A stretch of DNA of 64,000 nucleotides. Origin: Sinomonas sp. P10A9. Lineage in GTDB: Bacteria > Actinomycetota > Actinomycetes > Actinomycetales > Micrococcaceae. Below the pieces are notes generated by a model. The model saw only the letters and a program-made list of their open reading frames with translations, was not told the DNA's origin and did not search any database. Position numbers and translations under genes: made by a program. Position 1 is the first letter of the stretch. The number at the start of each line of letters is the position of its first letter. The stretch is from assembly GCF_041022165.1 (NCBI RefSeq), contig NZ_CP163302.1, forward strand, positions 3,472,001-3,536,000, written 5' to 3'. Below are positions 28,218 to 44,797 of the stretch, piece by piece.

Positions 28218-28239
28218 TTGACCAAGTAGACTTGGTCAA
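28218..28239. promoter_or_regulatory. Perfect palindrome at the antitoxin start (probable autorepression operator)
   Basis: Arms TTGACCAAGT (28218-28227) and ACTTGGTCAA (28230-28239) are exact complements around AG. The palindrome ends one base before GTG 28241. It contains TAGACT (28227-28232), a possible -10. Antitoxins of the Phd/YefM class repress their own operon by binding such palindromes (family knowledge). Confidence 0.75.
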
Positions 28240-28240
28240 T

Positions 28241-28851: not shown

Positions 28852-28884
28852 GCGGCCGTCTCCTGCGTCTTCTAGGCTTGTCCA

Positions 28885-29505
28885 GTGCCACTTTCCATCT
28901 GGGGCGCCCTGGTGGGCGCCTGCCTGCTCATCAGCTTCACCCCCGGCGCGGGCGCCATCAACACGATGAGCAACTCGCTCACCTCGGGGTTCCGCCGGGC
29001 CATCTGGGGCGTGCTCGGGCAGCAGGCGGCGCTCGTGGTGCACCTCGCTATCGTGGCGGCCGGTCTGGGGGTGCTCGTGGCCAGCTCCCCCACGGCGTTC
29101 AACGTGATCCGATACCTCGGCGCCGCGTACCTCATGTACCTCGGGGTCCGGCAGTTCGTCAGCAAGCCGGACACCTCGCCGGACGCCGTCACCTCTCTGG
29201 CGAGGGAGCCCGCGTGGTCGATGTTCCGTCGCGGCCTGTGGGTCAATCTCCTCAACCCCAAGGCCATCGTCTTCTTCCTCGCGTTCATCCCGGGGTTCGT
29301 GCGGCCCGACCTGCCGCTGTGGAGTCAGTACCTCGTCATCGGCGCGACCATTGTCTGCGTGGACGTCGTGGTCATGTGGTTCTTCTTCGCGCTCGCCGCG
29401 AAGAGCTTCAAGCGGTTCACGACGAGCGAATCCGGGCAGCGCGTGCTCGGCCGGGTCTTCGGGGTGCTGTTCGTGGGCGTCGGCGTGCTGCTCGCCGTCG
29501 TGTGA
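28885..29505 (+). CDS. LysE-family amino-acid exporter
   Basis: Inner-membrane exporter of 206 aa with about six hydrophobic segments (WGALVGACLLISFTPGAGAI, ALVVHLAIVAAGLGVLVAS, NPKAIVFFLAFIPGFV). The LysE/RhtB signature TPGAGAINTMSNSLTSGFRR near residue 16 is clear. The start is GTG 28885. It is a single gene 33 bp after the PIN toxin. Substrate probably an amino acid or derivative. Confidence 0.9.
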   Translation: MPLSIWGALVGACLLISFTPGAGAINTMSNSLTSGFRRAIWGVLGQQAALVVHLAIVAAGLGVLVASSPTAFNVIRYLGAAYLMYLGVRQFVSKPDTSPDAVTSLAREPAWSMFRRGLWVNLLNPKAIVFFLAFIPGFVRPDLPLWSQYLVIGATIVCVDVVVMWFFFALAAKSFKRFTTSESGQRVLGRVFGVLFVGVGVLLAVV

Positions 29506-29548
29506 GACGATGCGGGCCGCGGGGTCCCCTGACCCTATGCTTAGTCGC

Positions 29549-30079
29549 ATGAACTCGCCGGCGAGCCCCTACCGCATCATCACGGTCTGCACGGGGAATA
29601 TCTGCCGCTCGCCGATGGCCGAGTTCATGCTCGGAGCCGCGCTGCGGATCGCAGGCCTCAGCGAGAGCGCCGTGGTCGATTCCGCCGGCACCACCGCGTG
29701 GGAGGTCGGTCGGCCGATCGACCCGCGCGCCGCGCGCGTCCTCGACGGCCATGGACTGCGCAGCCACCAGCACATCGCGCGGCAGTTCGAGCCCGCGTGG
29801 TACTTCGAGCGGGAGCTCATCCTCGCCCTCGATGTGGACCACTACGGCCATCTGCGCGAGCACGCCCCCTCGGGCACCGAGGAGAAGGTCCGCATGCTGC
29901 GGGAGTTCGACCCCGCCGTCGCGGAACTCGACCACCTCGACCAGGGCATCGAGGACCCGTGGTTCGGCGACCAGAGTGACTTTGAGACGACATGGAAGCT
30001 CATCACGGCGGCCGTTCCGGGGATCGTCGCCCACGTGCGGCGCGAGATCGCCGCGTACGGCCTGCCCGCCGACGCGTGA
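29549..30079 (+). CDS. Low-molecular-weight protein-tyrosine phosphatase
   Basis: Cytoplasmic phosphatase of 176 aa. The P-loop VCTGNICRSPMAEF places catalytic Cys14 and Arg20; Asp of the acid loop is in IEDPWFGDQSDFE. ATG 29549 (MNSPASPYRI) is chosen, with ATG 29537 as an alternative. Its stop overlaps GTG 30076 of the pabB fusion gene (GTGA), so translation is coupled. The natural substrate, protein or arsenate-type, is not indicated. Confidence 0.92.
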   Translation: MNSPASPYRIITVCTGNICRSPMAEFMLGAALRIAGLSESAVVDSAGTTAWEVGRPIDPRAARVLDGHGLRSHQHIARQFEPAWYFERELILALDVDHYGHLREHAPSGTEEKVRMLREFDPAVAELDHLDQGIEDPWFGDQSDFETTWKLITAAVPGIVAHVRREIAAYGLPADA

Positions 30080-32427
30080 CGCCGGTGGCACCGGCACCCA
30101 CGCCGCGCCGCCCCGCCATCATCGCGGTCGACGGTCGCTCCGGGGCGGGCAAGACATCGCTCGCCGTCGAGGTCGCGGCGGCGTTGCGCGAGCACCGTAG
30201 TGTCGCGCTCCTGCACCTCGAGGACCTGTACCCGGGGTGGGACGGGCTCGACGAGGGGATCCGCCGCGGCCTGCAGGTCCTCGAGTGCCTCCGGCGCGGC
30301 GAGCCGGCCCGCTGGCGCCCGTGGGACTGGGCCGCGGACGCCGAGGGTGCCGAACGCGTGACCCAGCCCGCCGACGTCGTGCTCCTCGAGGGCGTGGGCG
30401 CGAGCGCCGCCCCCCTGCGTGCGCTGATCGACGCGGTGGTCTGGGTGGAAGCGGCAGACGACGAGCGCAAGCGCCGCGCCCTCGCGCGCGACGGCGAGAC
30501 CTACGCGCCGCACTGGGACCGCTGGGCCGCGCAGGAGGAGGCATGGCTCGCGCACGACGCCGCATCCTCGGCCGCCGCAGTCACCGTCACCTTGGATGGC
30601 TCCCGCCCGGGCGACGCCGGGGCCGAGCTCACCGCCGCCCTGGTCATCAATGCGCTCGCGGACCTGCCGTCCCTCCGCGACCTCCTCGCCCCCGAGCGGT
30701 CCGCGCGGGAGTCCGGGGGCGTCGTCGTGCGTCGGATGCCCGCCGTGCCGGACCCGCAGGCGCTCTTCGCCGAGCTGTTCGGCGCCTCGGAACGTGCCGT
30801 CTGGCTCGACTCCTCTGATGCCGAAGTCGGGTCGTCAGGGGCCGGAGTCGGGTCCCGCAGCAGGTTCAGCATCATGGCCGACGACGCCGGCCTCCTCGGA
30901 CGGCACATGGCCCACCGCCGCGGACTGACCGAGGTGGTGCACGGTCCCGGATCGGCGACGCCGGTCTCCGCCCGGTTCGACACGCCCTTCTTCCGCTGGC
31001 TCGACGCCGAGTGGGGACACGGCGGGAGCGGAGTGCCTGGCCTCGAGTGCGGCTTCGCCCTCGGCTGGCTCGGGTACCTCGGCTACGAGCTCAAGCGCGA
31101 ATGCGGGGGCTCCGATGTGGACCCAGGCCTCGCGGACGCCCAGCTGATCTTCGCCGCGCGGGCCGTGGTGCTCGACCACGCGCGAGGCGAGGCATGGCTC
31201 CTCGCCCTCGATGCGCCCGACGCCGAAGCCTGGCTCGACGTCGCGGCCGCGGCCGTCCGGCACGCACACGGGGTGACCTCGGGCGCACACGCGGTGACCT
31301 CGGGCGTGCATGGGGTGACCTCGGGTCCACACGGGGTGACCTCAGGCGCGCACGGGGTGACCTCGGGTCCACACGGGGTGACCTCAGGCGCGCACGGGGT
31401 GACCTCGGGCCCACACGGGGTGACCTCGGCGCATCTGGGGCCGGTGTTCTCGGGACGGGACTCGGCGTCGTCCTACATGGACAAGGTCCGCGCGGCCCTC
31501 GCCGAGATCGCCGACGGCAACACCTACGAGGTCTGCCTCACCACGACACTCGAGGCGACAGTCGCCGCAGGCGACAAACCTGCAGGCGACAGCCTTGGAG
31601 CCGACACTCACGCGGGCGGCCATCACAGCGGCCAGAGTCAGGACGTCGAGAGTCGCGACCTCGCCCGTCCCAGCGGCGACCGCCCCGCCGTCGTGCCCCT
31701 CGACGTCTACGGTGCCCTGCGGCGCCGCAGCCCGGCGCCCTTCGCAGCCTTCGCGCGGTTCGGGGGGCTCGCGATCGCGAGCACGTCGCCGGAGCGCTTC
31801 CTCGCCGTGACCGCCGACGGCGATCTCCGCGCCGAGCCGATCAAGGGCACCCGCCGCCGCACCCCGGGCGGAACGGCCGCCGAGGATGCCCTGGCCGATG
31901 CGCGCGTGCGCGCCGAGCTCGCGGCGAACCCCAAGGACCGCGCCGAGAACCTCATGATCGTAGACCTGCTGCGCAACGACCTCAGTCACCACGCGGTGCC
32001 CGGCTCGGTTGCGGTGTCACGGCTGTTCGCGGTCGAGACGTACGCGACAGTGCACCAACTCGTGAGCACCATCGACGCGCGTCTCCGCCCCGGCGCCTCG
32101 CGCGCCGAGGCGATCGCCGCCGCCTTCCCGCCCGGTTCCATGACGGGCGCCCCGAAGATCAGCACGATGGCCATCCTCGACCGCCTCGAGGCCGGCCCGC
32201 GCGGGGTCTACTCGGGCGCGATCGGCTACTTCTCGCGCACGGGCGCGGCGGACCTCTCGGTGGTGATCCGCACCCTGGTTATTCAGGAGCACGACGGCGC
32301 CGCGCGCCTCACGCTCGGAGTGGGCGGCGCCGTCGTGGCCGACTCGGACCCCTCGGACGAGTACGAGGAGATCCGGACCAAGGCCTTCGCGGTCCTCGGC
32401 GCGCTGGGTTCGGAGTTCCCGGGCTGA
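30076..32427 (+). CDS. pabB: P-loop kinase domain fused to aminodeoxychorismate synthase component I (PabB)
   Basis: Fused protein of 783 aa. Residues 1 to about 200 form a P-loop kinase of the uridine-kinase-like group: Walker A GRSGAGKTS (about 19-27), then LHLEDLYPGWDGLDEG. From about 212 a PabB part begins (VVVRRMPAVPDPQALFAELF). The chorismate-binding domain holds TSPERFLAV, AEPIKGTRRRTPGG (catalytic Lys of PIKGT, the PabB-type motif), NPKDRAENLMIVDLLRNDLS, PPGSMTGAPK and YSGAIGYFSRTG. It forms 4-amino-4-deoxychorismate for folate, with a glutaminase PabA located elsewhere. Two repeat-derived insertions occur: residues 250-263 and 397-452, the latter reading GVTSGPH eight times, plus a Gly/His-rich insert near 500-530. 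pabC lies 1.6 kb downstream. Confidence 0.93.
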   Translation: MTPVAPAPTPRRPAIIAVDGRSGAGKTSLAVEVAAALREHRSVALLHLEDLYPGWDGLDEGIRRGLQVLECLRRGEPARWRPWDWAADAEGAERVTQPADVVLLEGVGASAAPLRALIDAVVWVEAADDERKRRALARDGETYAPHWDRWAAQEEAWLAHDAASSAAAVTVTLDGSRPGDAGAELTAALVINALADLPSLRDLLAPERSARESGGVVVRRMPAVPDPQALFAELFGASERAVWLDSSDAEVGSSGAGVGSRSRFSIMADDAGLLGRHMAHRRGLTEVVHGPGSATPVSARFDTPFFRWLDAEWGHGGSGVPGLECGFALGWLGYLGYELKRECGGSDVDPGLADAQLIFAARAVVLDHARGEAWLLALDAPDAEAWLDVAAAAVRHAHGVTSGAHAVTSGVHGVTSGPHGVTSGAHGVTSGPHGVTSGAHGVTSGPHGVTSAHLGPVFSGRDSASSYMDKVRAALAEIADGNTYEVCLTTTLEATVAAGDKPAGDSLGADTHAGGHHSGQSQDVESRDLARPSGDRPAVVPLDVYGALRRRSPAPFAAFARFGGLAIASTSPERFLAVTADGDLRAEPIKGTRRRTPGGTAAEDALADARVRAELAANPKDRAENLMIVDLLRNDLSHHAVPGSVAVSRLFAVETYATVHQLVSTIDARLRPGASRAEAIAAAFPPGSMTGAPKISTMAILDRLEAGPRGVYSGAIGYFSRTGAADLSVVIRTLVIQEHDGAARLTLGVGGAVVADSDPSDEYEEIRTKAFAVLGALGSEFPG
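30823..30864 (+). repeat. Two type-2 21-bp units inside pabB
   Basis: GAAGTCGGGTC and ten more bases (30823-30843), then GGAGTCGGGTC and ten more (30844-30864). They resemble the type-2 units at 34910-34930 and 34973-34993 in array B. They encode EVGSSGA GVGSRSR-like residues 250-263 and keep the reading frame. Confidence 0.6.
31265..31432 (+). repeat. Array A: eight 21-bp repeats in frame inside pabB
   Basis: Eight head-to-tail copies of exactly 21 nt, core CACACGGGGTGACCTCG plus four variable bases (GGCG, GGTC, AGGC-like). All keep the frame and encode seven residues, mostly HGVTSGP or HGVTSGA. The array lies in the linker before the chorismate-binding domain. The same unit occurs outside genes in arrays B, C and D. 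Confidence 0.95.
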
Positions 32428-32511
32428 CCGGCGGCGTCGCCAGACAGCCGCGCACCGCCCGAGACCGCACCAGACCGCCCCAGCCCGCGCCTGCGCGGAC
32501 GGCCGCGAGCG

Positions 32512-33975
32512 CTACTGAAGCGTCGCCGTCAGCCGGGCGACGTTGTCCACATACCGGGTCAGCATCGGCCGGTTGCGCCACTCGTGCAGGTCGAGGCGTT
32601 TGCTCACGTCCCGGTACATGTCCTCGACCTTGCGCATCTGCCCGACGATGACCGAGCCCGGCAGCATGAGCGAGACCTCCATATTGAGCGAGAACGAGCG
32701 CATGTCCATGTTGGAGGAACCGAGGACGGCGACGTCGTCGTCGACCGTGAAGTGCTTCGCGTGCAGCACGAACGGTTTCGGGTAGCGGTAGATCTTGACC
32801 CCAGCGACGAGGAGTTGCTCGTAGTACGACTGCTGGGCGTGGTGCACAAGGAACTGATCCCCCTGCTCCGAAACGAACAGCTCGACGTCGACACCGCGCT
32901 GCGCCGCCGTCGTGACCGCGTAGAGGAGCGAGTCGTCGGGGACGAAGTACGGGCTGCAGATCGAGAGCCGGTGCTGCGCCGAATAGATGAGGGTATTGAA
33001 GAGCCGGAGGTTGTTCTCGTTCGCGAAGGCCGGGCCGCTCGGCACTACCTGCGCGGGCTCGTCGCCAGCCTGATCGGCGGCCTCGAGCTGGTCCTCGAGG
33101 ATCTCGTCCGTCTCCGAGAGCCAGTCAGTGGCGAAGACGATGTTGAGCGTCGTGACGGCCGGACCGTCGATCCGGGCCATGAGCTCAACCCATTTCCGGT
33201 TGCCCTTGCGGTGGTAGGTCCGCTCGATGAGGTTCAGCGAGCCCGTGAAGGCGATCTCGCCGTCGACCACCATGATCTTCCGGTGGTTGCGCAGGTCCAC
33301 CCGCCGCCACTGGCCGCGCACCGGCAGGAGCGGGAGCATGCGGTGCCACTGGATACGGGTCTCCTTGAGCCGCCTCACGAAGCCCCGGTAGCCCTTGACC
33401 CGCAGCGACCCGATGTGGTCGTACAGGAACCGGACCTCGACGCCGCGGTCCGCGGCGTCGGCGAGGGCCCTGAACAGCTCGTCGGTGACCTCATCCCAGC
33501 CGACGATGTAGAACTCGGCGTTGACGAACCGCTTGGCGCCGCGCACCGCCTCGGTCATCTCTGCGATCGAGTCCTCGTAGCCCGGGATGAGGCGCACCGT
33601 GTTGCCGTTGACCATCGGCAGGGACCCGAGGCCGCGGTTGAGCTCCGCGGCGGACTGGAGCCAGTCGGGACCCTCGAAGGCCGTGTCGACGTCATGCGAG
33701 TCGGCGAGCGCCGCACGGACGCGCGCGTTGACCTGCTGCTGCTGCTCGCGGCGCTTGCCGGAGACCCGGAAGTTGCCGAACATGAGGAACAGCAGCAGCC
33801 CGATGGTGGGCACGAAGAAGATCGCAAGGAGCCACGCCATCGCCGTCGTGGGCCGCCGGTTGCCGGGGATGATGCCCAGCACCGCCACGCGGATCACGAG
33901 ATCGACCGCCGCCAGCAGCAGCGTGACCCAGTCCGGCAGGAACCCCACGAGGGGGAACTGGAACACCATAGGCAC
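32512..33975 (-). CDS. cls: Cardiolipin synthase (phospholipase D family)
   Basis: Membrane enzyme of 487 aa condensing two phosphatidylglycerols. Two membrane segments lie at the N-terminus (residues about 8-60), followed by two PLD domains with HKD motifs: HRKIMVVDGEIAFTGSLN and HAKHFTVDDDVAVLGSSNMD. Length and order match bacterial ClsA. It is convergent with the pabB fusion and divergent from pabC; no operon partner is seen. Confidence 0.95.
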   Translation of the reverse strand: MPMVFQFPLVGFLPDWVTLLLAAVDLVIRVAVLGIIPGNRRPTTAMAWLLAIFFVPTIGLLLFLMFGNFRVSGKRREQQQQVNARVRAALADSHDVDTAFEGPDWLQSAAELNRGLGSLPMVNGNTVRLIPGYEDSIAEMTEAVRGAKRFVNAEFYIVGWDEVTDELFRALADAADRGVEVRFLYDHIGSLRVKGYRGFVRRLKETRIQWHRMLPLLPVRGQWRRVDLRNHRKIMVVDGEIAFTGSLNLIERTYHRKGNRKWVELMARIDGPAVTTLNIVFATDWLSETDEILEDQLEAADQAGDEPAQVVPSGPAFANENNLRLFNTLIYSAQHRLSICSPYFVPDDSLLYAVTTAAQRGVDVELFVSEQGDQFLVHHAQQSYYEQLLVAGVKIYRYPKPFVLHAKHFTVDDDVAVLGSSNMDMRSFSLNMEVSLMLPGSVIVGQMRKVEDMYRDVSKRLDLHEWRNRPMLTRYVDNVARLTATLQ

Positions 33976-33991
33976 AGCCTAAGCTGTCCCC

Positions 33992-34906
33992 ATGACTCAG
34001 ACCGTTCTCGTGTTCCTCGACCGCGCGTTGCCCGACGGACGCATCGAGGACGCCACCAAGCCACAGCTGTTCGCCACCGATCTCGGTGCGACGCGCGGCG
34101 ACGGGGTGTTCGAGACGGCACTCGTGCTGGACGGCCACGTCCGCAAGCTGCCCGCACACCTGCACCGCATGACCCACAGCGCCGCGCTGCTCGATCTGGA
34201 CATCCCGGACCACACGGTCTGGGAACGGGCCATCGTCACCGCGCTCGACGAATACCAGCGCGTGGTGGGGCCCCTCACCGAGGTGGTCGTGAAGCTCGTG
34301 GTGACGCGCGGCGTCGAGGGAGCGCACGAGCCGACGTGCTGGGTCGCCGCGTCCGCGCCAGCGCCGGCGGCGAAGCGCCAGCGCGAGGAAGGCATCGATG
34401 TGCTCCTCCTGGATCGGGGCTACGACTCCGACGTCGCGGAGCGCGCCCCGTGGCTGCTCCTGGGCGCCAAGACCCTCTCCTACGCCGTGAACATGGCCGC
34501 GCTGCGTTACGCGCATGCACACGGCGCCGACGACATCATCTTCACGTCCACCGATGGGCAAGTCCTCGAGGGGCCCACCTCGACCGTGCTGCTCGCCCAC
34601 GCTGAGAAGGACGACGCCGGCCGGGTCACCCTCAAGAGGCTTGTCACCCCGCGCCTGGACTCGGGGATCCTCCCGGGCACCTCCCAGGGTGCGCTGTTCG
34701 CGGCGGCGAAGGACGCCGGATGGGAGCTCGGGTATGGGCCGCTCGTTCCGGAGGACCTGTTCGACGCCGACGCCGTGTGGCTCATCTCCTCCGTGCGGCT
34801 GCTCACCCCCGTGAACCACCTCGACGGCAAGCCCATCGGCTCCGACCCGGACCTCTCCAAGGCCCTGACCGAGGAGCTCGCGGCCCTGTTCGACGCGATC
34901 CATTGA
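33992..34906 (+). CDS. pabC: 4-amino-4-deoxychorismate lyase (PabC), class IV aminotransferase fold
   Basis: PLP enzyme of 304 aa that releases pyruvate from aminodeoxychorismate to give p-aminobenzoate. It has the class IV pattern: ATRGDGVFETALVLDG near residue 30, the PLP lysine in LLLGAKTLSYAVNM (about residue 157), EGPTSTVLLA and RLDSGILPGTSQGA. The PabB fusion gene is nearby, which supports PabC over branched-chain aminotransferase or D-amino-acid transaminase. Array B of the 21-bp repeats begins 3 bp after the stop. Confidence 0.88.
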   Translation: MTQTVLVFLDRALPDGRIEDATKPQLFATDLGATRGDGVFETALVLDGHVRKLPAHLHRMTHSAALLDLDIPDHTVWERAIVTALDEYQRVVGPLTEVVVKLVVTRGVEGAHEPTCWVAASAPAPAAKRQREEGIDVLLLDRGYDSDVAERAPWLLLGAKTLSYAVNMAALRYAHAHGADDIIFTSTDGQVLEGPTSTVLLAHAEKDDAGRVTLKRLVTPRLDSGILPGTSQGALFAAAKDAGWELGYGPLVPEDLFDADAVWLISSVRLLTPVNHLDGKPIGSDPDLSKALTEELAALFDAIH

Positions 34907-34909
34907 CGC

Positions 34910-35138
34910 GAGATCGGGTCCCGTAACGCCGAAGTCACCCCATGTGGGCGCGAGATCACCCCGTGTGGGCGCGACGTAGGGCCCCCTGACGCCGAAGTCA
35001 CCCCGTGTGGGCGTGAGATCACCCCGTGTGAGCGCGAGGTCACCCCGTGTGAGCGTGAGATCACCCCGTGTGAGCGTGAGATCACCCCGTGTGGACGCGA
35101 GGTCACCCCGTGTGAGCGCGACGTCGGGCCATAGGCGC
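34910..35138 (-). repeat. Array B: ten and a half 21-bp units after pabC
   Basis: Ten units of exactly 21 nt from 34910 to 35119, then a 19-nt partial unit. Eight are type 1 (GAGRTCACCCCGTGTG then NGCGY on this strand). Two full units and the partial one are type 2 (34910-34930, 34973-34993, 35120-35138), with GGGTCCC/GGGCCCC in place of CACCCCG. Orientation is opposite to arrays A, C and D. Confidence 0.95.
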
Positions 35139-35231
35139 ATATCTACCATCGAGCGCGCACCTTTTCGGCGACCGGCTCCGCCCGAAGTTCCTTTGTTGCC
35201 CCCAGGTGCCGCTTTCGCTCGACCCCCTCGA

Positions 35232-35297
35232 CCGGAAGTTCCTGTCTCGCGGAGCAGTTCGCCGGGAGCGCGCTTCGGAGCGAAATAGGAACTGCGG
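35232..35297. repeat. Imperfect palindrome between arrays B and C
   Basis: CCGGAAGTTCCTGTCTCGC (35232-35250) is largely complementary to GCGAAATAGGAACTGCGG (35280-35297). Further NAGTT motifs lie at about 35184, 35255, 35303 and 35332. It could fold into a stem-loop when transcribed. Confidence 0.6.
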
Positions 35298-35359
35298 AGT
35301 CGAGAAGTTCATTTTCCACCGGCGCCGGCCCCGCAGTTGCCCGTCATTACCCAACCTCG

Positions 35360-35443
35360 CGCCCACACGGGGTGACCTCGTGCTCACACGGGGTGACCTC
35401 GCGCCCACACGGGGTGACCTCGCGCCCACACGGGGTGACCTCG
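35360..35443 (+). repeat. Array C: four 21-bp repeats upstream of mmsA
   Basis: Four units of 21 nt with almost no variation: CGCCCACACGGGGTGACCTCG in three, TGCTCACACGGGG-type in one. It ends 91 bp before the mmsA start. Same orientation as arrays A and D, opposite to B. Confidence 0.95.
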
Positions 35444-35534
35444 GCGCGCCAGCTCTGGAAATTAGTTGGAAGTCCGAGTATCTTCGATCTCAGATGACCG
35501 GCATCACATTCCACCCCAAGCAAAGGAGCTTGCC

Positions 35535-37037
35535 ATGGTCCGCGACCTCTCGCACTACATCGGCGGCGCACGCGTCGACGGCACATCCGGGCGTTACAGC
35601 GACGTCTACAACCCCTGCACGGGCGAGGTCCAGGCCCGCGTCCCGCTCGCGAGCACGGATGAGGTCAGCGAGGCCGTCGCCAACGCCGAGAAGGGTCAGG
35701 CCGAGTGGGGCGCCATGAACCCGCAGCGCCGCGGCCGGATCCTCCTGAAGTTCGTGGACCTCGCCAACGAGCACATGGATGAGCTCGCTGAGCTCCTCTC
35801 CTCCGAGCACGGCAAGACGTTCGCGGACGCCAAGGGCGATGTCCAGCGCGGCCTCGAGGTTGTCGAGTTCTCGGCCGGCGCCGCCCCGCACCTGCTCAAG
35901 GGCGAGTTCTCCGACAGCGTCGGTACGGGCATCGACGTGCACTCGCTGCGCAAGCCGCTCGGCGTCGTCGCCGGCATCAGCCCCTTCAACTTCCCCGCGA
36001 TGATTCCGCTGTGGCAGGCGGGCCCCGCGCTCGCGGCCGGCAATGCGTTCATCTGCAAGCCGAGCGAACGGGACCCCTCGGTCCCCCTCCGCCTCGCCGA
36101 GCTGCTCACCGAGGCCGGTCTCCCCGACGGCGTCTTCAACGTGGTCAACGGCGACAAGGAGGCCGTGGATGCGCTCCTGACGCACCCCCGCGTCCAGGCC
36201 ATCGGCTTCGTCGGATCCACCCCGATCGCCCAGTACATCTACTCGACCGCCGCGGCGCACGGCAAGCGCGCGCAGTGCTTCGGCGGCGCGAAGAACCACA
36301 TGGTGATCCTCCCGGACGCAGACCTGGACATGGCCGCGGATGCGCTCATCGGCGCGGGCTTCGGCTCCGCCGGCGAGCGCTGCATGGCCATCTCGGTAGC
36401 CGTCCCGGTTGGCGAGGAAACGGCGGACGCCCTCGTCGGCAAGCTCCAGGAGCGCATCAAGGACCTGCGGGTCGGCGCGAGCATGGACAAGGACGCGGAC
36501 TTCGGGCCGGTCGTCGCCGCGTCGGCCAAGGAGCGGATCGAAGGCTACATCGCCCAGGGCGTCGAGGAGGGCGCGGACCTGCTCGTGGACGGTCGCGGCC
36601 ACACGGTCGAGGGCTACGAGGGCGGCTTCTGGGTGGGCCCCACGCTCTTCGACCGCGTCACGAAGGACATGACGATCTACCAGCACGAGATCTTCGGCCC
36701 GGTCCTGAGCGTCGTGCGCGCCACGGACTACGACGAGGCCCTGCGACTGTGCAGCGAGCACGAGTTCGGCAACGGCGTCGCGATCTTCACGCGTGACGGA
36801 GACGCCGCCCGCGACTTCGCGAGCCGCGTCGAGGTCGGCATGGTCGGGGTCAACGTGCCGATCCCGGTGCCGATCGCCTACTACACGTTCGGCGGCTGGA
36901 AGGCCTCCGGATTCGGCGACCTCAACCAGCACGGCCCCGATGCGTTCCGGTTCTTCACGAAGACCAAGACGGTCACGTCCCGCTGGCCGTCCGGCGTCCG
37001 CCAGGGCGCGAGCTTCGTCATGCCGGCGGGCAGCTGA
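35535..37037 (+). CDS. mmsA: CoA-acylating methylmalonate-semialdehyde dehydrogenase
   Basis: NAD-dependent aldehyde dehydrogenase of 500 aa turning (methyl)malonate semialdehyde into propionyl- or acetyl-CoA, in valine and inositol breakdown. Visible are SPFNFPAMIPLWQAGPALAAG, FVGSTPIAQYIYSTAAAHGK, the catalytic cysteine in GSAGERCMAIS and the C-terminal PFYYTFGGWK-type end (PIAYYTFGGWKASGFGDLNQ). ATG 35535 follows AAAGGAG. It leads an operon with the hydrolase-like gene and mmsB, marking valine rather than inositol catabolism. Confidence 0.96.
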   Translation: MVRDLSHYIGGARVDGTSGRYSDVYNPCTGEVQARVPLASTDEVSEAVANAEKGQAEWGAMNPQRRGRILLKFVDLANEHMDELAELLSSEHGKTFADAKGDVQRGLEVVEFSAGAAPHLLKGEFSDSVGTGIDVHSLRKPLGVVAGISPFNFPAMIPLWQAGPALAAGNAFICKPSERDPSVPLRLAELLTEAGLPDGVFNVVNGDKEAVDALLTHPRVQAIGFVGSTPIAQYIYSTAAAHGKRAQCFGGAKNHMVILPDADLDMAADALIGAGFGSAGERCMAISVAVPVGEETADALVGKLQERIKDLRVGASMDKDADFGPVVAASAKERIEGYIAQGVEEGADLLVDGRGHTVEGYEGGFWVGPTLFDRVTKDMTIYQHEIFGPVLSVVRATDYDEALRLCSEHEFGNGVAIFTRDGDAARDFASRVEVGMVGVNVPIPVPIAYYTFGGWKASGFGDLNQHGPDAFRFFTKTKTVTSRWPSGVRQGASFVMPAGS

Positions 37038-38138
37038 ATGGCGGCTGAAGCCGACGCGTCCGCGACCGTCCAGGCCACCGCGGAAGTCCTCTTCGAGCGG
37101 CGCGGCCGGCTCGGCGTCGTCGTGCTCAACCGCCCGCGCGCCGTCAACGCGCTCACCCACGGCATGGTCACGGCGATGCTCGCGCAGCTCACGGAATGGG
37201 CCGAGGACGACGCCGTGCAGACGGTCCTCGTGCGCGGCGCCGGCGAGCGCGGGCTGTGCGCCGGCGGGGACATCGTGGCGATCTACCGGGACATGGTCGA
37301 CGGCGGCGACGCGAGCGCGCGCTTCTGGGCCACCGAGTACCGGCTCAACTCGCTCATCAGCCGCTACCCGAAGCCCTACGTCGCGTTCATGGACGGCCTC
37401 GTGCTCGGCGGCGGCGTGGGGGTCTCGGCCCACGGTTCGCACCGGGTGGTCACCGAGCGCACCCGCACTGGTATGCCGGAGACCACGATCGGGTTCGTGC
37501 CAGACGTCGGCGGCACGCTCCTGCTCGCGTACGCGCCGGGCGAGGCGGGCACCCATGCCGCGCTCACGGGCGCACACCTCGATGGCGCGGACGCGCTGCA
37601 CCTCGGCCTCGCGGACTTCTTCGTCCCGAGCGACCGGCTGGACGAACTCGCCACGGCGCTCGAGACGGAGCGGGCGGACGACGCCGTTGCCCGGCTCGCG
37701 CGGCAGGCACCCCTTTCCGCGCTCGCGGCACAGCGCGGGTGGGTCGATGAGGCCTACGCGTCAGACGACGCCGAGGAGATCGTGCGCCGCCTGCGGGCCT
37801 CGGAGCTCTCCGTGGCCCGCGAGGCCGCCGACACAATCGAGTCCAAGTCACCCACCTCGGTCAAGGTGACGCTCGAGGCGCTGCGGCGCGCACGGGCCCG
37901 CGGCCCGATCGCCCTGGCCCTCGAGGAGGCCCTCGACGAGGAGTACCGGATAGGGCTGCGCCTCCTCGCCGGGCACGACTTCCGCGAGGGCATCCGCGCC
38001 CAGGTCATCGACAAGGACCGGAACCCGCGCTGGGAGCCGGCCACGCTCGCCGGCGTGACGCGCGAGCAGGTCGAGACCTGCTTCGCGCCGCTCGGCGAGC
38101 GCGAACTGGGCCTCGCCGCGGCGGTCGCTGCCCGGTGA
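37038..38138 (+). CDS. 3-hydroxyisobutyryl-CoA hydrolase-like enoyl-CoA hydratase family protein
   Basis: Crotonase-fold protein of 366 aa, longer than simple hydratases and matching HIBYL-CoA hydrolases. Oxyanion-hole segments GERGLCAGGDIVAIYRDM and FMDGLVLGGGVGVSAHGSHR, and PETTIGFVPDVGGT with the catalytic acidic residue, plus the long helical C-terminus, fit that family. It starts one base after the mmsA stop (TGAATG), thus coupled. In valine catabolism it cleaves 3-hydroxyisobutyryl-CoA to 3-hydroxyisobutyrate, used by the next gene product. Confidence 0.93.
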   Translation: MAAEADASATVQATAEVLFERRGRLGVVVLNRPRAVNALTHGMVTAMLAQLTEWAEDDAVQTVLVRGAGERGLCAGGDIVAIYRDMVDGGDASARFWATEYRLNSLISRYPKPYVAFMDGLVLGGGVGVSAHGSHRVVTERTRTGMPETTIGFVPDVGGTLLLAYAPGEAGTHAALTGAHLDGADALHLGLADFFVPSDRLDELATALETERADDAVARLARQAPLSALAAQRGWVDEAYASDDAEEIVRRLRASELSVAREAADTIESKSPTSVKVTLEALRRARARGPIALALEEALDEEYRIGLRLLAGHDFREGIRAQVIDKDRNPRWEPATLAGVTREQVETCFAPLGERELGLAAAVAAR

Positions 38139-38203
38139 GCGCAGACCCGGGCATTGAGCCCGCAGGACGTTCACACCCGCATCAGGAGACTGAAGGAGAC
38201 ACC

Positions 38204-39127
38204 ATGACCGACCCCTCCGCCGCAGGCACCATCGCGTTCCTCGGCCTTGGCCACATGGGCGGGCCGATGGCGGCGAACCTCATCAAGGCCGGCTACAGCG
38301 TCATCGGGTACGACCCGGTCCCCGCCGCCGTCGAGGCCGCACAGGCGCACGGGATCCCGCTCGCCGGGACCGCAGCCGAGGCCGCGGCTGGCGCCGCCGT
38401 GGTCCTGACGATGCTGCCGAGCGGCCGCCACGTCCTGGACGCGTACCGCGGCATCGGCGGCGAGGCTGGCCTGCTCGCGGTGGCCGGGCCCAACACGCTG
38501 TTCCTCGACTGCTCCACGATCAACGTGACCGAAGCTCAGGAGGCTGCCGCGGCGGCCATCGCGGCGGGCCACCGCTCGGTGGACGCGCCCGTCTCGGGCG
38601 GCGTGGTCGGAGCCGAGGCCGCGACGCTCACGTTCATGGTGGGCGGCGAGGCCGAGGACTTCGACTCCGTCCGCCCGGTCCTCGAGGCCATGGGCAAGCG
38701 CGTGGTGCACTGCGGCGCCCACGGCCTCGGCCAGGCGGCCAAGGTCTGCAACAACATGATCCTGGGCGTATCAATGATCGCGGTGAGCGAGGCGTTCGTG
38801 CTCGGCGAGAAGCTCGGACTCACCCACGAGGCCCTGTTCGACGTCGCGGCCCACGCCTCCGGCCAGTGCTGGGCCCTCACGACCAACTGCCCGGTTCCCG
38901 GCCCGGTGCCCACGAGCCCGGCCAACCGGGACTACCAGCCCGGGTTCGCCGGTGCGCTCATGGCCAAGGACCTCCGACTGGCCGTCAACGCGGTCGAGCA
39001 CACGGGCGTCGCGGCGGAGATGGGTCCGCTCGCCTCGAGGATCTACGACTCGTTCGTGGAGCACGGCGGGGCAGGGACGGACTTCTCCGGCGTCATCAAC
39101 ACCATCCGGGAGCAGTCGGACCACTAG
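38204..39127 (+). CDS. mmsB: 3-hydroxyisobutyrate dehydrogenase
   Basis: NAD-dependent dehydrogenase of 307 aa of the beta-hydroxyacid family. N-terminal Rossmann motif FLGLGHMGGPMAANLIKAGY, substrate motif DAPVSGGVVGAEAATLTFMV, and the catalytic lysine in GLGQAAKVCNNMILG are typical. ATG 38204 has GAAGGAG nine bases upstream. It oxidises 3-hydroxyisobutyrate to methylmalonate semialdehyde, feeding MmsA. It is the third gene of the valine operon. Confidence 0.95.
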   Translation: MTDPSAAGTIAFLGLGHMGGPMAANLIKAGYSVIGYDPVPAAVEAAQAHGIPLAGTAAEAAAGAAVVLTMLPSGRHVLDAYRGIGGEAGLLAVAGPNTLFLDCSTINVTEAQEAAAAAIAAGHRSVDAPVSGGVVGAEAATLTFMVGGEAEDFDSVRPVLEAMGKRVVHCGAHGLGQAAKVCNNMILGVSMIAVSEAFVLGEKLGLTHEALFDVAAHASGQCWALTTNCPVPGPVPTSPANRDYQPGFAGALMAKDLRLAVNAVEHTGVAAEMGPLASRIYDSFVEHGGAGTDFSGVINTIREQSDH

Positions 39128-39164
39128 CCCCAGCAGTAACCCCCTCCCCCTCCCCCTCCCCACG

Positions 39165-39261
39165 TTGAGGGGTCACGTCCCCGTTGAGGGGTCACATCTC
39201 TAATTCTTGAGGCCTGCTCTTTAGAGAAGTGACCCCTCATTTGGGAAGTGACCCCTCAACT
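39165..39261. terminator. Composite inverted repeat between convergent mmsB and MarR genes
   Basis: Two 19-nt direct units GTTGAGGGGTCACNTC (39165-39202) face two inverted units (about 39222-39260, TAGAGAAGTGACCCCTC and TTGGGAAGTGACCCCTC). The 39-nt arms match with about five mismatches around a 19-nt loop. It lies between stop codons of convergent genes and most likely terminates both. The GGGGTCAC core differs in one base from the GGGGTGAC core of the 21-bp arrays. Confidence 0.75.
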
Positions 39262-39266
39262 GAAGG

Positions 39267-39770
39267 TCACGCGAAGTCCCCGGCCGCACGGCGGAAGTCG
39301 CTGAGGATGCGGATGAGGTCCTCGACGTCGCCGCCGGTGAACCCGGACCGGGCAAAGACCTCGGCGTTGAGCCGCGCGGTCGCCTCCTTGGCCACCGCGC
39401 GGCCGTCGGGGGTGAGCTCGATGAGCGTGGTCCGCCCGTCCGTGGGATGCGGTGTCCGCGCGACGTACCCGGCCTGGGCTAGCCGGTCGACGGCGTTGGT
39501 CACCGACGTGGGGTGCACCTGGAGGAGCGCGCTGGCCCGGTTCATGGGCAACGCCCCCGTGCGGGCAAAGCTCAGGAGCGCGAGCATCTCGTAGCGTGCG
39601 AACGTGAGCCCGAGTGGTCTGAGCACGTCCTCGATGCGCGCGGTGAGGATCTGCTGCGTGCGCATGATCGCCGTGATGGCGGCCATGGGCGCCGCGACGT
39701 CCCCCCACCCGTGCCGCTCCCAGTTGCGCTGGGCATCGGCAATCGGGTCGCGGGGAAGCGGGGCGCCCAT
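39267..39770 (-). CDS. MarR-family regulator
   Basis: Winged-HTH repressor of 167 aa. HTH and wing: LPMNRASALLQVHPTSVTNA, then VDRLAQAGYVARTPHPTDGR. The N-terminal helix is longer than in minimal MarR proteins. ATG 39770 has GAGGAGGACC upstream. It follows the acyl-CoA synthetase gene on the same strand, with two GACTAGTC palindromes between. It likely regulates itself and acyl-CoA metabolism genes nearby (inference). Confidence 0.92.
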   Translation of the reverse strand: MGAPLPRDPIADAQRNWERHGWGDVAAPMAAITAIMRTQQILTARIEDVLRPLGLTFARYEMLALLSFARTGALPMNRASALLQVHPTSVTNAVDRLAQAGYVARTPHPTDGRTTLIELTPDGRAVAKEATARLNAEVFARSGFTGGDVEDLIRILSDFRRAAGDFA

Positions 39771-39810
39771 GGTCCTCCTCTCCTGACGTGTCTGACGTGT
39801 CTGCCGCGCT

Positions 39811-39838
39811 GACTAGTCTTTCGTTGTGCTGACTAGTC
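39811..39838. promoter_or_regulatory. Two GACTAGTC palindromes 20 bp apart upstream of the MarR gene
   Basis: GACTAGTC occurs at 39811-39818 and 39831-39838, each followed by TTTC, exactly 20 bp apart. They lie 41-68 bp upstream of the MarR start. The second overlaps the stop codon of the synthetase gene. This is a candidate autoregulatory operator. Confidence 0.55.
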
Positions 39839-41611
39839 TTTCAGAGACGGGAAGTCACTCTCGCCATATTCGATCCCGAATCCGCTCGCGAGCTCCACGG
39901 CCCGACCCTCCGAGCCTCCGTGCCGTGCCTCCTCACTGTGCCGCAGCTCGACGCGCCGGATCTTGCCCGAGATCGTCTTGGGCAGCTCAGCGAACTCGAT
40001 GCGGCGGATGCGCTTGAACGGCGCCAGCTGCGCCCGGCAGAAGCGCAGGATCTCCTCCGCGACCGCAGGCCCCGGCTCGTACCCGCCCGCGAGCACCACG
40101 AAGGCCTTCGGGACGGAGAGCCGCACCTCATCCGGGGAGGGCACGACGGCGGCCTCGGCCACCGCGGGGTGCTCGATCAGCACGCTCTCGAGCTCGAACG
40201 GTGAGAGCCGGTAGTCCGAGGACTTGAAGACGTCGTCGCCGCGGCCCACATAGGTGATGACGCCATCGGCATCCCGCGTCGCCATGTCGCCCGTGTGGTA
40301 GTAGCCGCCGCGGAACGCGTCCGCGGTCTTCTCTGGGTCCCCGTAGTAGCCCTTCATGAGCCCCACAGGCCGGGGGTCGAGGCGCAGGCACAGCTCGCCG
40401 TCGTCCGACTCGTCGCCTGTCGTGGGGTCCACGAGCACGACGTCGTAGCCGGGGAGCGGACGTCCCATTGCACCGGCGGTGACGGGCTGGCCAGGCGTGT
40501 TGGCGACCTGGACGGTGGTCTCGGTCTGCCCGAAGCCGTCGCGGATCGTCACGCCCCAGGCCTTCTCCACCTGGCCGATAACCTCGGCGTTGAGCGGCTC
40601 GCCGGCCGAGACGACCTTGCGCGGCGGAGCCGTGAGCTGGGTCAGGTCGGACTGGATGAGCATCCGCCACACCGTGGGCGGGGCGCAGAAGCTCGTGACG
40701 CCCTCGGCACCCATCTGGGCCATGAGCGCGGAGGCGTCGAAGCGCTCGTAGTTGTAGATGAACACCGTAGCCTCGGCGATCCACGGTGTGAACACATTGG
40801 ACCATGCGTGCTTGGCCCACCCGGGCGAGGCCACGTTGAGGTGCACGTCGCCCGGCTCGAGGCCGATCCAGTACATCGTGGAGAGGTGGCCCACGGGGTA
40901 TGAGGTGTGCGTGTGCTCAACGAGCTTGGCCCGGCTCGTAGTACCGGACGTGAAGTAGAGCAGGAGCGTCTCGTCGGCCTTCGTGGGGGCATCGGGCGTG
41001 AAGTCGGTGGCCGAGGCGGCAGAGTCACCGTAGCTGAGGACGCCGTCGTTCGGAACACCCTCGTCGGACGCTCCCAGCGCGGAGTCCGCACCCGGCGTCG
41101 TGCTTCCCCCGACGACGATGAGGCGGTAGCCGCCCGGTACGTCGTCGAACTTGTGGGCGTTCGCGGCGCCCACGGTGACCCAGTGCGCGCCGCCGCGCTC
41201 CACGCGGTCCTCGAGGTCGCGGCGCCCCATGAGGGTGGTGGTCGGGATCATGACGACGCCGAGCTTGATGCCCGCGAGCATGAGCTCCCACAGCTCCACC
41301 TGGTTGCCGAGCATGATGATCATGCGGTCCCCGCGCTGCACGCCCTGCTCCCGCAGCCAGTTGGCGACCTGCGACGAGCGCGCGGAGAGCTCCGCGAAGG
41401 TGCGGCGCGTGGAGCTGCCGTCCTGCTCCACGATCACAAGGGCGGCCTGGCTGCCGCGGACTGGATCAGCGCCGAGGGCGTCGAACCAGTCGAGCCCGAA
41501 GTTGAACTCATCGAAGCGGGGCCACTCGAACTCGGCGTGGGCGCGGGCATAGTCCGCGCGGAGCTCGAGCAGCCGGTCCCGGGCCGCCCGGAATTCGTCG
41601 GTGACAGTCAT
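39833..41611 (-). CDS. AMP-forming acyl-CoA synthetase
   Basis: ATP-dependent acyl-CoA ligase of 592 aa (ANL superfamily). The P-loop-like LLYFTSGTTSRAKLVEHTH, A5 motif IRDGFGQTETTV, A8 GDMATRDADGVITYVGRGDD and the catalytic lysine region LPKTISGKIRRVELR are all seen. It resembles medium-chain acyl-CoA or MbcS-type (2-methylbutyrate/isobutyrate) synthetases. That fits the neighbouring valine genes, though the acyl specificity is not proved. A bidirectional promoter region separates it from the acyl-CoA dehydrogenase gene. Confidence 0.93.
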   Translation of the reverse strand: MTVTDEFRAARDRLLELRADYARAHAEFEWPRFDEFNFGLDWFDALGADPVRGSQAALVIVEQDGSSTRRTFAELSARSSQVANWLREQGVQRGDRMIIMLGNQVELWELMLAGIKLGVVMIPTTTLMGRRDLEDRVERGGAHWVTVGAANAHKFDDVPGGYRLIVVGGSTTPGADSALGASDEGVPNDGVLSYGDSAASATDFTPDAPTKADETLLLYFTSGTTSRAKLVEHTHTSYPVGHLSTMYWIGLEPGDVHLNVASPGWAKHAWSNVFTPWIAEATVFIYNYERFDASALMAQMGAEGVTSFCAPPTVWRMLIQSDLTQLTAPPRKVVSAGEPLNAEVIGQVEKAWGVTIRDGFGQTETTVQVANTPGQPVTAGAMGRPLPGYDVVLVDPTTGDESDDGELCLRLDPRPVGLMKGYYGDPEKTADAFRGGYYHTGDMATRDADGVITYVGRGDDVFKSSDYRLSPFELESVLIEHPAVAEAAVVPSPDEVRLSVPKAFVVLAGGYEPGPAVAEEILRFCRAQLAPFKRIRRIEFAELPKTISGKIRRVELRHSEEARHGGSEGRAVELASGFGIEYGESDFPSLKD

Positions 41612-41685
41612 TGTCTGCCTTTCGTGTCCGCCCCCGGGACGCCCTCGTCCCAGCAGTCGTGCTAGTGATCCGTGTCACGATGAAA

Positions 41686-41702
41686 TATAGTAGGACTTCC
41701 TA
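41686..41702. promoter_or_regulatory. Possible -10 and palindrome TAGGACTTCCTA upstream of the acyl-CoA dehydrogenase gene
   Basis: TATAGT (41686-41691) could be the -10. It is followed at once by TAGGACTTCCTA (41691-41702), whose 5-bp arms pair around CT. The site lies between divergent synthetase and dehydrogenase genes and is a candidate repressor site over the transcription start. Confidence 0.45.
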
Positions 41703-41756
41703 GGGTTTGAACAGGGAGCCGTTCACGAGACGCCCCGAGATTGACGAAGAGGTCAC

Positions 41757-42962
41757 ATGCTTCAGGCACCAGAATCCCTCCTGGCCCCCGCCGCACCGAT
41801 GGAACCGCCCTTCCCCGACGCCGACCTCATGCACGTCGTCGACCTGCTCTCACCCCGGGAGCGGGCGCGATTCAGCGAGCTGCGGACCGTGCTCCAGCGG
41901 GACATCCGCCCGCTCACGCCCGAGTACTGGAACCGCGAGGAGTTCCCGTTCGGCCTCCTGCCCCGGCTCGCCTCCCTCGGCCTCGGCCGGCTCCAGACCG
42001 ACGGGTCCTCGCGCCTGTTCACGGGGCTCGCGTACATGGAGATGGCCCGGGCCGATGTCTCCCTGTCCGCCCTGGTGGGGATCCACAACGAGCTCATCGT
42101 GGGCATGATCAACGATCTCGGTTCGCCTGAGCAGAAGGCCCGGTGGCTGCCGGGCCTTCAGTCCCTCACCGAGCTCGGCGCGTTCGCGCTCACCGAGCCC
42201 GAGCACGGCTCGGACATCGCTGGCGGCCTCGCCACGACGGCGACGCACGACGGCGCGGGCTGGGTCCTGCGCGGGGCGAAGCGTTGGATCGGGGCTGGCA
42301 CCATCGCCGACTTCGCCCTCGTCTGGGCCCGCGACACGGCCGACGGCGCGATCAAGGCCTTCATCGTCGAGACCGATCGGCCCGGGTTCACGGCCACGAA
42401 GATCGCCAACAAGATCGGCCTGCGCATCATGCAGAACGCCGACATCGTCCTGGACGACGTCCGCGTCCCCGACGGCAACCTGCTTCCCGGCGCGACCGCG
42501 TTCAGCCGGGCCAACGAGCTCTTGCGCGACTCGCGCGCATGGGTCGGGTGGCAGGCCGCGGGCATCCAGCTCGGAGCGTTCGACATCGCCCGGGCGTATT
42601 CGCTCGAGAGGATCCAGTTCGGGCGCGAGCTTGCGTGCTTCCAGCTCGTCCAGCAGCAGCTCGCGGAGATCCTCGGCAACGCGCACGCGTCGCTCTCGCT
42701 CATGGTGGAGCTCGCGCGCATCCAGGAGTCGGGGCAGCTCGAGATGGTGCAGTCCGCCATGGCGAAGTCGACCACCACCCGGCTCGCCCGCTCTTCCGTG
42801 GCTCTCGGACGGTCCATCCTGGGCGGCAACGGGATCACAACCGACTACGAGATGGCCAAGCTCTTCGGCGACGCGGAGGTCCTGTACACCTACGAGGGCA
42901 CGTACGAGATCAACTCGCTCATCGTCGCCCGGGCGGTGACCGGCAAGTCCGCCTTCGTCTGA
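41757..42962 (+). CDS. Acyl-CoA dehydrogenase, glutaryl-CoA dehydrogenase-like
   Basis: FAD enzyme of 401 aa oxidising an acyl-CoA, passing electrons to ETF. The flavin motif FALTEPEHGSDIAGGLATTA, WIGAGTIADFALVWARD and VRVPDGNLLPGA are present. The C-terminal LYTYEGTYEINSLIVARAVTG carries the catalytic Glu in the YEGT context typical of glutaryl-CoA dehydrogenases. An isobutyryl-CoA role within the valine group is also conceivable; the YEGT context argues for the glutaryl-CoA-type branch. Divergent from the synthetase gene. Confidence 0.93.
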   Translation: MLQAPESLLAPAAPMEPPFPDADLMHVVDLLSPRERARFSELRTVLQRDIRPLTPEYWNREEFPFGLLPRLASLGLGRLQTDGSSRLFTGLAYMEMARADVSLSALVGIHNELIVGMINDLGSPEQKARWLPGLQSLTELGAFALTEPEHGSDIAGGLATTATHDGAGWVLRGAKRWIGAGTIADFALVWARDTADGAIKAFIVETDRPGFTATKIANKIGLRIMQNADIVLDDVRVPDGNLLPGATAFSRANELLRDSRAWVGWQAAGIQLGAFDIARAYSLERIQFGRELACFQLVQQQLAEILGNAHASLSLMVELARIQESGQLEMVQSAMAKSTTTRLARSSVALGRSILGGNGITTDYEMAKLFGDAEVLYTYEGTYEINSLIVARAVTGKSAFV

Positions 42963-43034
42963 GATCCGCGCCCGCGACGCACGGTGAGACGCAAGGCTCT
43001 GGCGGTGGCGGCGTCGTGCGTCTACGGTGCGGGT

Positions 43035-43343
43035 ATGGAACACACCGATCGCGTGCCCGCCCCACCGGGACTCCCGGCATTCGATGACGCCGCACCGCTC
43101 GACGACGGCTACAGCCAGACCGAGAACTACGGCCACAACCAAGAGTCGATGCAGCTGCGCGACCCGAGCCGATACGCCGACGCCCCGCCCGGGGAGCCCC
43201 GCACCGAGCTCCCGCCTGCGGCCCCGGCCGCGCCGGCGAAACGCCGCCCCCACACCTCGGGCCTCGGGACCTCCGGCGCCGCGGGCATCCCGGACTCTGC
43301 GGGCGCCACCCACACGGGGTTCGGGGACCCGGACCGCGACTGA
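43035..43343 (+). CDS. Hypothetical Pro/Gly-rich protein
   Basis: Putative protein of 102 aa, without recognisable domains. It starts MEHTDRVPAPPGLPAFDD and ends SAGATHTGFGDPDRD; the middle has Pro/Ala-rich segments and is probably disordered. No strong ribosome site precedes ATG 43035; the same frame is open from ATG 42984. Codon use is acceptable. It could be a small soluble protein or not a gene. Array D of the 21-bp repeats begins 17 bp after its stop. Confidence 0.5.
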   Translation: MEHTDRVPAPPGLPAFDDAAPLDDGYSQTENYGHNQESMQLRDPSRYADAPPGEPRTELPPAAPAAPAKRRPHTSGLGTSGAAGIPDSAGATHTGFGDPDRD

Positions 43344-43360
43344 CCGCAGCCCCGCCGATC

Positions 43361-43528
43361 CGCACGGGGTGACCTCGGCGCCACATGGGGTGACCTCGGC
43401 ACCACCCGGGGTGACCTCGGCACCACACGAGGTGACCTCGGCACCACCCGGGGTGATCTCGGCGTCACACGGGGTGACCTCGGCACCACCTGGGGTGACC
43501 TCGGCGTCACACGGAGTGACTTCGGCAG
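43361..43528 (+). repeat. Array D: eight 21-bp repeats upstream of the MetE-like gene
   Basis: Eight units of exactly 21 nt, core CACACGGGGTGACCTCGG followed by CAC, CGC or CGT. Variation is confined to scattered positions (CACCCGGGG, CACATGGGG, GGTGATCTC). It ends 42 bp before ATG 43571. Same orientation as arrays A and C. Confidence 0.95.
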
Positions 43529-43570
43529 GGATGGTCGCGAACCGCGGCGCCCATGAGAAAGACTGGCGCC

Positions 43571-44794: not shown

Positions 44795-44797
44795 GGC

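Follow-up and report, generated by a model that had tools for sequence, protein, structure and literature searches.

Dispersed 21-bp tandem arrays of Sinomonas with a constrained core, a gene-end bias and species-specific core types

The 64-kb stretch of DNA analysed here (the window; positions 3,472,001 to 3,536,000 of contig NZ_CP163302.1) is part of the one-contig 4.29-Mb genome of Sinomonas sp. P10A9, hereafter the own genome (G000), and carries four arrays, A to D, of tandem 21-bp units. We find that these arrays belong to a dispersed family with at least 45 arrays of two or more units, and at least 238 units, in the own genome alone. The family keeps its period and its core, is biased in orientation toward gene 3' ends, and recurs, partly at shared sites, in other species of the genus. 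A trans-acting reader best explains these data because the period is rigid, the core is constrained, the spacers between cores are free, three reading frames are used in coding arrays, and the core has been replaced in place. We put at roughly 45% the probability that this is a satellite family with species dialects, in which a trans-acting, sequence-specific factor would keep the core and the helical period constant. An earlier, sequence-only reading had described the repeats at four main places within 12.7 kb. All four were recovered, but their extent was understated: that reading missed the genome-wide family, its orientation to gene 3' ends, its location at 3' ends and in linkers, and the almost genome-wide replacement of the core in other species.

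Arrays in the window and across the genome

The features of the window that concern the arrays are:

31265-31428, plus strand: array A, eight type-1 units, inside a pabB-like gene (30076-32427)
34909-35139, minus strand: array B, eight type-1 units at 34930-35114 plus variant units
35290-35338: stem of 8 bp with a loop of 33 nt, between arrays B and C, distal to B
35364-35443, plus strand: array C, four units, all with a perfect core, inverted relative to B
43361-43524, plus strand: array D, eight units, flanked by a small called gene at 43035-43343 and a methionine-synthase-like gene at 43571-44794

Units were placed with one 17-mer consensus, and this finder recovered at 21 bp all 28 type-1 units that had been reported (8, 8, 4, and 8 in A, B, C, and D). 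Their description as head-to-tail at exactly 21 bp is accurate for every step except one, a 42-bp step in array B over a degenerate unit. The finder called no unit in any of 20 trimer shuffles of positions 28001-46000. For the exact 11-mer GGGGTGACCTC, the window has 18 copies where 0.10 would be expected. Because all 18 copies fall within arrays A to D, 18 of the 28 units have a perfect core. A chance origin of the window arrays is excluded. The earlier rejection of a CRISPR also stands, as 21-bp units placed head to tail leave no room for unique spacers.

The arrays of the own genome were taken from 37 stretches around listed matches, which makes 45 arrays a lower bound. Of these, 36 are intergenic and 9 lie inside genes by the calls of a simple, unvalidated GC-frame caller; some coding-looking arrays remain in the intergenic set, namely L108, whose orthologues elsewhere are called coding, and, judged by eye, probably L100 and the left array of L111. 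Conversely, one array called coding (L112) lies in a 62-residue frame that is perhaps no gene. Counted on both strands of the whole genome, exact cores number 93 (57+36) against 0+1 in the reversed control, with 86 of them inside called arrays and 7 outside, and units with up to three mismatches number 248 against 17 in the reversed control. Between 1.33 and 2.41 Mb, a quarter of the chromosome, no array of two or more units was seen among the matches listed (up to two mismatches).

Constraint on period and core

Steps of up to 35 bp in noncoding DNA of the own genome, collected with up to three mismatches and no period requirement, measure 21 bp in 108/109 cases, and the same count with the bare core GGTGAYNTC gives 120/125. 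Because the loci of other species had been collected with patterns spaced at 21 bp, their period and core statistics are biased, and free-gap searches (spacings 14-28) were added for two genomes, Sinomonas sp. R1AF57 (G003) and G010. Among the matches listed for R1AF57 (of 126), all pairs but two are at 21 bp, as are 84/85 pairs in G010. The free drift of the period between genomes that the sequence-only reading had associated with neutral slippage is thus not what these two genomes display. Rare departures from this spacing, core pairs 14 bp and 27 bp apart, occur at G003:C1:416049-416071 and G010:C34:8801-8836, respectively.

Conservation within the unit is uneven. In the own genome, G15, A16, and T19 are conserved at 1.00 and positions 12-14 and 20 at 0.95-0.98, while positions 17 and 18, inside the core, reach 0.88 and 0.74, all of these positions carrying equal weight in the finder. 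We compared the own genome with Sinomonas sp. ASV486 (G038), a strain of the same species, over six of the seven array pairs with equal unit number (the seventh, L023/L104, differs in length), and found 1/196 differences at GGTGA..TC versus 60/392 elsewhere. The flanks of the two strains differ by 2.6%, with 15 gaps per 116 substitutions. Gaps within the aligned arrays have many lengths, of which 21 is the commonest (5/28), a distribution that is partly an artefact of aligning repeats. Between loci of the own genome, the core differs at 1.6-1.9 of 12 positions and the spacer at 4.2 of 9, and units within one array differ on average by 3.8/21 bases. Since unit turnover can inflate a contrast of this kind, the core-spacer difference is good but not conclusive evidence that the units are recognised. 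The phasing of all cores on one face of the helix, to which the earlier reading had drawn attention, is simply the arithmetic of 21 bp and is no evidence of protein binding.

Core types, shared sites and history in the genus

Tandem pairs at 21 bp were counted in 15 Sinomonas genomes for type 1 (GGTGAYNTC) and type 2 (CCCGAYNTC), with reversed controls of 0 (pairs given as type 1/type 2):

G000 169/0, G038 142/4, G003 198/0, G008 95/6
G013 9/1, G012 7/3, G004 4/1, G011 4/2
G002 2/26, G010 2/119, G007 1/53
G001 0/1, G005 0/1, G006 0/1, G009 0/0

The core type is near-exclusive per genome, and the 21-bp design is common to both types, with CCCGA..TC replacing GGTGA..TC. A midpoint-rooted tree of five genes places G002, a type-2 genome, within the type-1 clade, adjoining G012. 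By parsimony, the dominant core type has therefore changed at least twice. The type-2 set comprises 49 arrays in 31 fetched loci (12 from G002, 18 from G010, and 1 from G007). By BLAST of flanks within 700-900 bp, 22 of these 49 lie beside a type-1 array of the own genome, 18 in the same relative orientation and 4, excluded from the 18, in the opposite one. Arrays of mixed composition are also present, such as a 63-bp composite in G010 and the variant units of array B, and these look like intermediates between the core types.

The family is not confined to one strain, a confinement that the sequence-only reading would have taken as a sign of neutral slippage: all 19 arrays detected in ASV486 lie at array sites of the own genome, and other species carry the family too. 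Arrays at such sites number 17/43 in R1AF57, 15/23 in DS1018, and 56/92 over six genomes. Unit number differs in 12/19 locus pairs between the two strains. Orthologous arrays are slightly closer than non-orthologous ones in their spacers, with distances (of 9) of 4.07 vs 4.28 for R1AF57 and 4.17 vs 4.64 for DS1018, and when pairings were shuffled, the distance over all positions was no larger than the observed one in 43/1000 and 4/1000 cases, respectively. Some old locus history thus appears to persist, but little.

Recent copying of whole arrays between loci was considered and rejected, as no block of at least 40 nt is shared, the longest measures 39 nt, and only 4/976 locus pairs reach 35 nt. 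Copying between the arms of divergent pairs likewise found no support, the longest common string being 23 nt in 14 pairs.

Across the whole collection, 60/67 loci with tandem cores are in Sinomonas. The other 7/67, together with one viral contig, each have one exact tandem core pair, and an array was called in 2/8 of them, in a beta-proteobacterial metagenome-assembled genome (L013, four units) and in Streptomyces (L051, two units). The former (L013:6082-6182) consists of four 21-bp units TGTGACATGGGSTGACCTCGC.

Position behind genes and orientation

By the type of spacer that holds them, the 36 intergenic arrays of the own genome divide into 17 convergent, 19 tandem, and 0 divergent. By spacer bases in a random 200-kb sample, 19% would be expected in convergent and 28% in divergent spacers (p = 1e-4 and 8e-6). 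Most intergenic arrays sit a few bases past stop codons. Of the arrays no more than 35 bp from a gene 3' end, 21 have GAGGTCACCCC on the strand of the upstream gene and 3 have the reverse, and because of this polarity toward the upstream gene, minus-then-plus pairs arise between convergent genes. In other Sinomonas loci the ratio is 33:7 overall and 20:2 where the own genome has the site too; type-2 arrays within 40 bp give 20:6.

Seven proteins with arrays were scanned against Pfam and six had matches (pabB-like, DnaX-like, DeaD-like helicase, DsbD/thioredoxin-like, DUF4194/MksE-like, and PRTase/TRSP/StiP); their seven arrays fall outside all matches, the other two of the nine coding arrays being in proteins with no match. 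Three reading frames are used, giving AEVTP, HGVTSAP, and RGDLGAT, which places the constraint at the DNA level. The earlier statement that the period is kept inside and outside genes, and does not follow from codon phase, therefore fits one DNA-level family. In the DUF4194/MksE-like gene (L110:2773-3693), oppositely oriented arrays lie near both ends of the coding region; R1AF57 has arrays at both matching places and G002 has CCCGA-type units at the N-terminal one.

RNA folding and terminator signals

We examined 23 sense-oriented arrays within 60 bp of a gene end for nearby hairpins. A stem of at least 9 bp lies distal to the array in 8 of them (one hairpin being counted from both sides), and the mean longest distal stem is 8.1 versus 5.6 in shuffles. 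Between stop codon and array no such stem was found in any of the 23, only 5 of those segments being long enough (21 nt). Where such a distal hairpin follows, the array would form the final segment of the transcribed mRNA.

The array itself does not resemble the stem-loop of an intrinsic terminator, since the sense strand of 40 type-1 arrays folds like its shuffles (mean z score -0.19). The antisense strand has a mean z of -1.75 and is the lower in 32/40, and in window arrays A, C, and D the strand with GGGGTGACCTC gives strong folds (z of -4.1, -3.1, and -4.2). For type 2, the mean z is -0.67 for the sense strand vs -0.15, with a mean minimum free energy of -54.4 vs -45.0 kcal/mol, and the antisense z is lower in 15/34. 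Termination through RNA folding was dropped as a conserved property, the folding asymmetry not being kept in type-2 arrays. The word GGGGTGATCTC resembles a Shine-Dalgarno sequence, and its complement the 16S rRNA 3' end; this likeness was set aside as well, as type 2 loses it yet keeps position and polarity.

Interpretation of the family

An array bound by a protein would fit these observations best. We propose that the arrays would be copies of one dispersed Sinomonas satellite family, whose copy number may shift fast as whole 21-bp units are added or lost. A trans-acting factor would meanwhile keep the two-turn period and the core, in which GA..TC is common to all and the left half, GGT or CCC, depends on the species. 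The simplest such factor would be a DNA-binding protein that spans multiple phased sites along the same helix face. Arrays would persist where they are least harmful and where the factor could act on a gene end, that is, just past stop codons, upstream of any visible terminator hairpin, and in DNA that encodes linkers. The core switch, we infer, came after a change in the binding protein. The location of arrays behind genes points to a role where transcription units end, most likely their marking or insulation by nucleoid or supercoil anchoring. Possibly, though less likely than not, this amounts to a recognition system not described before, in which protein specificity would have changed at least twice and about 45 arrays would have followed in place, genome-wide, from CCCGA..TC to GGTGA..TC or back; if true, it would be a bacterial counterpart of co-evolving satellite DNA and its binding proteins.

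Several observations weigh against a protein-held family. No binding protein or co-varying gene was identified in this analysis. Five genomes (G001, G004, G005, G006, and G009) are nearly array-free, with 0-5 tandem pairs of the two types together, and any function is therefore dispensable. Coding arrays occur in both orientations, 3 sense and 6 antisense in the own genome and 11 and 14 in the others, which together with the array-poor species argues against an essential or strictly polar role. Polarity falls to 13:5 (p = 0.096) at sites not shared with the own genome. Divergent spacers, empty in the own genome, hold 3/67 type-1 arrays of other genomes and 6/35 type-2 arrays; this weaker avoidance hurts the proposal, whereas the free-gap result favours it. 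Single type-1 motifs are scarce, with 2 in 34.5 kb of spacers from the random 200 kb of the own genome (reversed control 1) beside 5 in tandem, a scarcity unlike that of a conventional regulator's sites, and within genes the motif occurs 18 times versus 1 in the reversed control, an excess presumed to be due to codon usage. Finally, the comparison of the two strains is partly circular, since variation among the units of an array already falls for the most part outside the core, and exact tandem cores served to locate the strain loci.

A serious rival, and quite a possible one, is a satellite with no function, in which an ancestral Sinomonas seed repeat was dispersed, its tandem copies are gained and lost through slippage and unequal exchange and survive only where they are harmless, and core conservation stems from the amplification process or from mutation bias. 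The locations would suit it, as 3' ends and linkers tolerate insertion and divergent spacers are rarely occupied. So would the strong changes in copy number between the two strains, the near loss of the family in G004 and G013 (4 and 9 type-1 pairs) beside their relative G008 (95), and the coexistence in the genus of other repeat families of 14-32 bp, one with a drifting period. It would, however, lead one to expect even substitutions, yet positions 12-16 and 19-20 are nearly fixed while 17-18 vary, and proportional indels, yet the period stays; nor does it predict the near-genome-wide replacement of one core half at kept sites.

An element acting at the RNA level, with the array in the 3' untranslated region and its RNA word read by a protein or ribonuclease that sets mRNA stability or termination, is improbable. 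It would account for the polarity bias to the upstream gene and for the placing of stems distal to the sense arrays, none having been found in the few segments before the array that could hold one; but the predicted folding asymmetry is not kept between types 1 and 2, coding arrays take both orientations, and a DNA helical period is irrelevant to an RNA word. The inverted pairs behind gene ends also recall bacterial REP doublets, and units might be spread by a transposase or reverse transcriptase. We consider such mobility very unlikely, given that loci have no block of 40 nt or more in common and that Y1_Tnp (PF01797) was found in 0/15 Sinomonas genomes, the control search being positive in 5/14, and RVT_1 (PF00078) in 1/15 and not in the array-richest ones. 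The sole reverse-transcriptase match lies at G002:C1:1169874-1170566.

If a factor does read the arrays, as we prefer, the genus would offer a natural series of core switches in which that factor could be found by gene presence and co-variation. If none does, the family would be a clean model, in bacteria, of how satellites are born, change in concert, and are lost, and would also provide a ready-made typing system for Sinomonas based on variable-number tandem repeats (VNTR).

Comparison with known systems

The sequence-only reading could name no known family. This agrees with Rfam, where the only hit in positions 30800-43600 of the window is mir-642 at the 39.2-kb hairpin, scoring far short of its gathering threshold, and with our searches of open-licence papers in PubMed Central, in which we found no satellite family with a fixed helical period, gene-end polarity, and a species-specific core. 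Dispersed prokaryotic satellite families are nevertheless a known kind, and the Sinomonas arrays have the marks of dispersed satellites or VNTR, with one family at many loci and a unit number that varies between strains.

REP, BIME, and REPIN elements with their RAYT transposases are short, dispersed, and often in inverted pairs behind gene ends, with a species-specific sequence. The Sinomonas arrays differ in being head-to-tail with a fixed period, in the lack of a Y1 transposase in the 15 genomes, and in the small number of dispersed single units between genes. MIRU-VNTR of mycobacteria are likewise actinobacterial intergenic tandem repeats with strain-variable copy number, but their units are several times longer than 21 bp.

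The nearest known kind are the dispersed satellites of prokaryotes, in which noncoding tandem repeats of a single family likewise occupy numerous intergenic sites within a genome. The families listed for Leptospira interrogans and Methanocella conradii have units of 37, 46, and 69 nt (Subirana and Messeguer 2019, PMC6749651), and the same source describes the transposition of non-coding satellites as rare in prokaryotes. Unlike those listed families, that of Sinomonas has a 21-bp unit, gene-end polarity, a constrained core, and a core swapped at kept sites. For the pattern of core types, the nearest analogue is the dialects of the DNA uptake sequence (DUS) in Neisseriaceae, in which, as outlined by Frye (2013, PMC3630211), the word varies by species, the core stays, and a trans-acting reader is matched to it. 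DUS are present in thousands of copies, and uptake words were rejected for Sinomonas, where only 93 exact cores occur in 4.29 Mb, 86 of them in tandem arrays and 7 outside. PARCELs resemble the present arrays as dyad-symmetric DNA repeats in tandem, spread through several genes, but in the account of Roske (2010, PMC2996958) they encode one 25-residue protein motif, whereas the Sinomonas arrays use three frames and are mostly noncoding.

Local features of the window and other repeats

Array A is the only one of the four within a gene. It encodes HGVTSG-like repeats (residues 397-452) that come after the Pfam match Anth_synt_I_N (229-373) and before Chorismate_bind (538-769), and its counterpart in ASV486 has 6 units. 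At its N-terminus the pabB-like product carries a fused P-loop/kinase-like domain, indicated by a weak AAA_18 match and by NF005115 below its cut-off.

Arrays B, C, and D lie between called genes. Array B begins 2 bp past the pabC stop codon with GAGGTCACCCC-type words on the pabC strand, and follows the polarity rule, to which arrays C and D are exceptions. Its variant units, equal in length, flank and interrupt it at 34909-34929, 34972-34992, and 35119-35139. The stem-loop at 35290-35338 is a weak terminator candidate. Array C lies 91 bp upstream of a methylmalonate-semialdehyde dehydrogenase gene and forms with B a divergent pair, an arrangement recurring at many sites. In ASV486, array B continues directly into the end of array C via GAGGTCACCTC, and the pabC 3' end of G002 has one inverted CCCGA-type pair. 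Site D has 3 units in ASV486 and CCCGA-type units in G002; no array is seen there in G008 and G006, whose flanks are too diverged to define the junction. The methionine-synthase-like gene beside array D has NCBIfam matches below cut-off.

A second repeat family is present at 39164-39256 of the window, where two 19-bp GTTGAGGGGTCACGTCCC-like units face two inverted units between convergent genes. Near 39.2 kb, as placed by distance, ASV486 has a 3.7-copy 19-bp array and G002, G003, G004, and G013 have 14- or 22-bp arrays; the GTTGAGGGGTCACGTCCC-like family thus seems to drift in period, unlike the 21-bp family. Arrays of 31-32 bp with words like CGTTTCGGGTAC occur in G009 (L137, L146, L147), G005 (L138), G006 (L141), and G001 (L142). 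These species have few arrays of the 21-bp family, and several of the 31-32-bp arrays form inverted pairs close to gene 3' ends. A terminator-like hairpin word, CGCACGACGGCG...CGCCGTCGTGCG, recurs in gene-end spacers at L078, L081, L083, L085, L102, and others.

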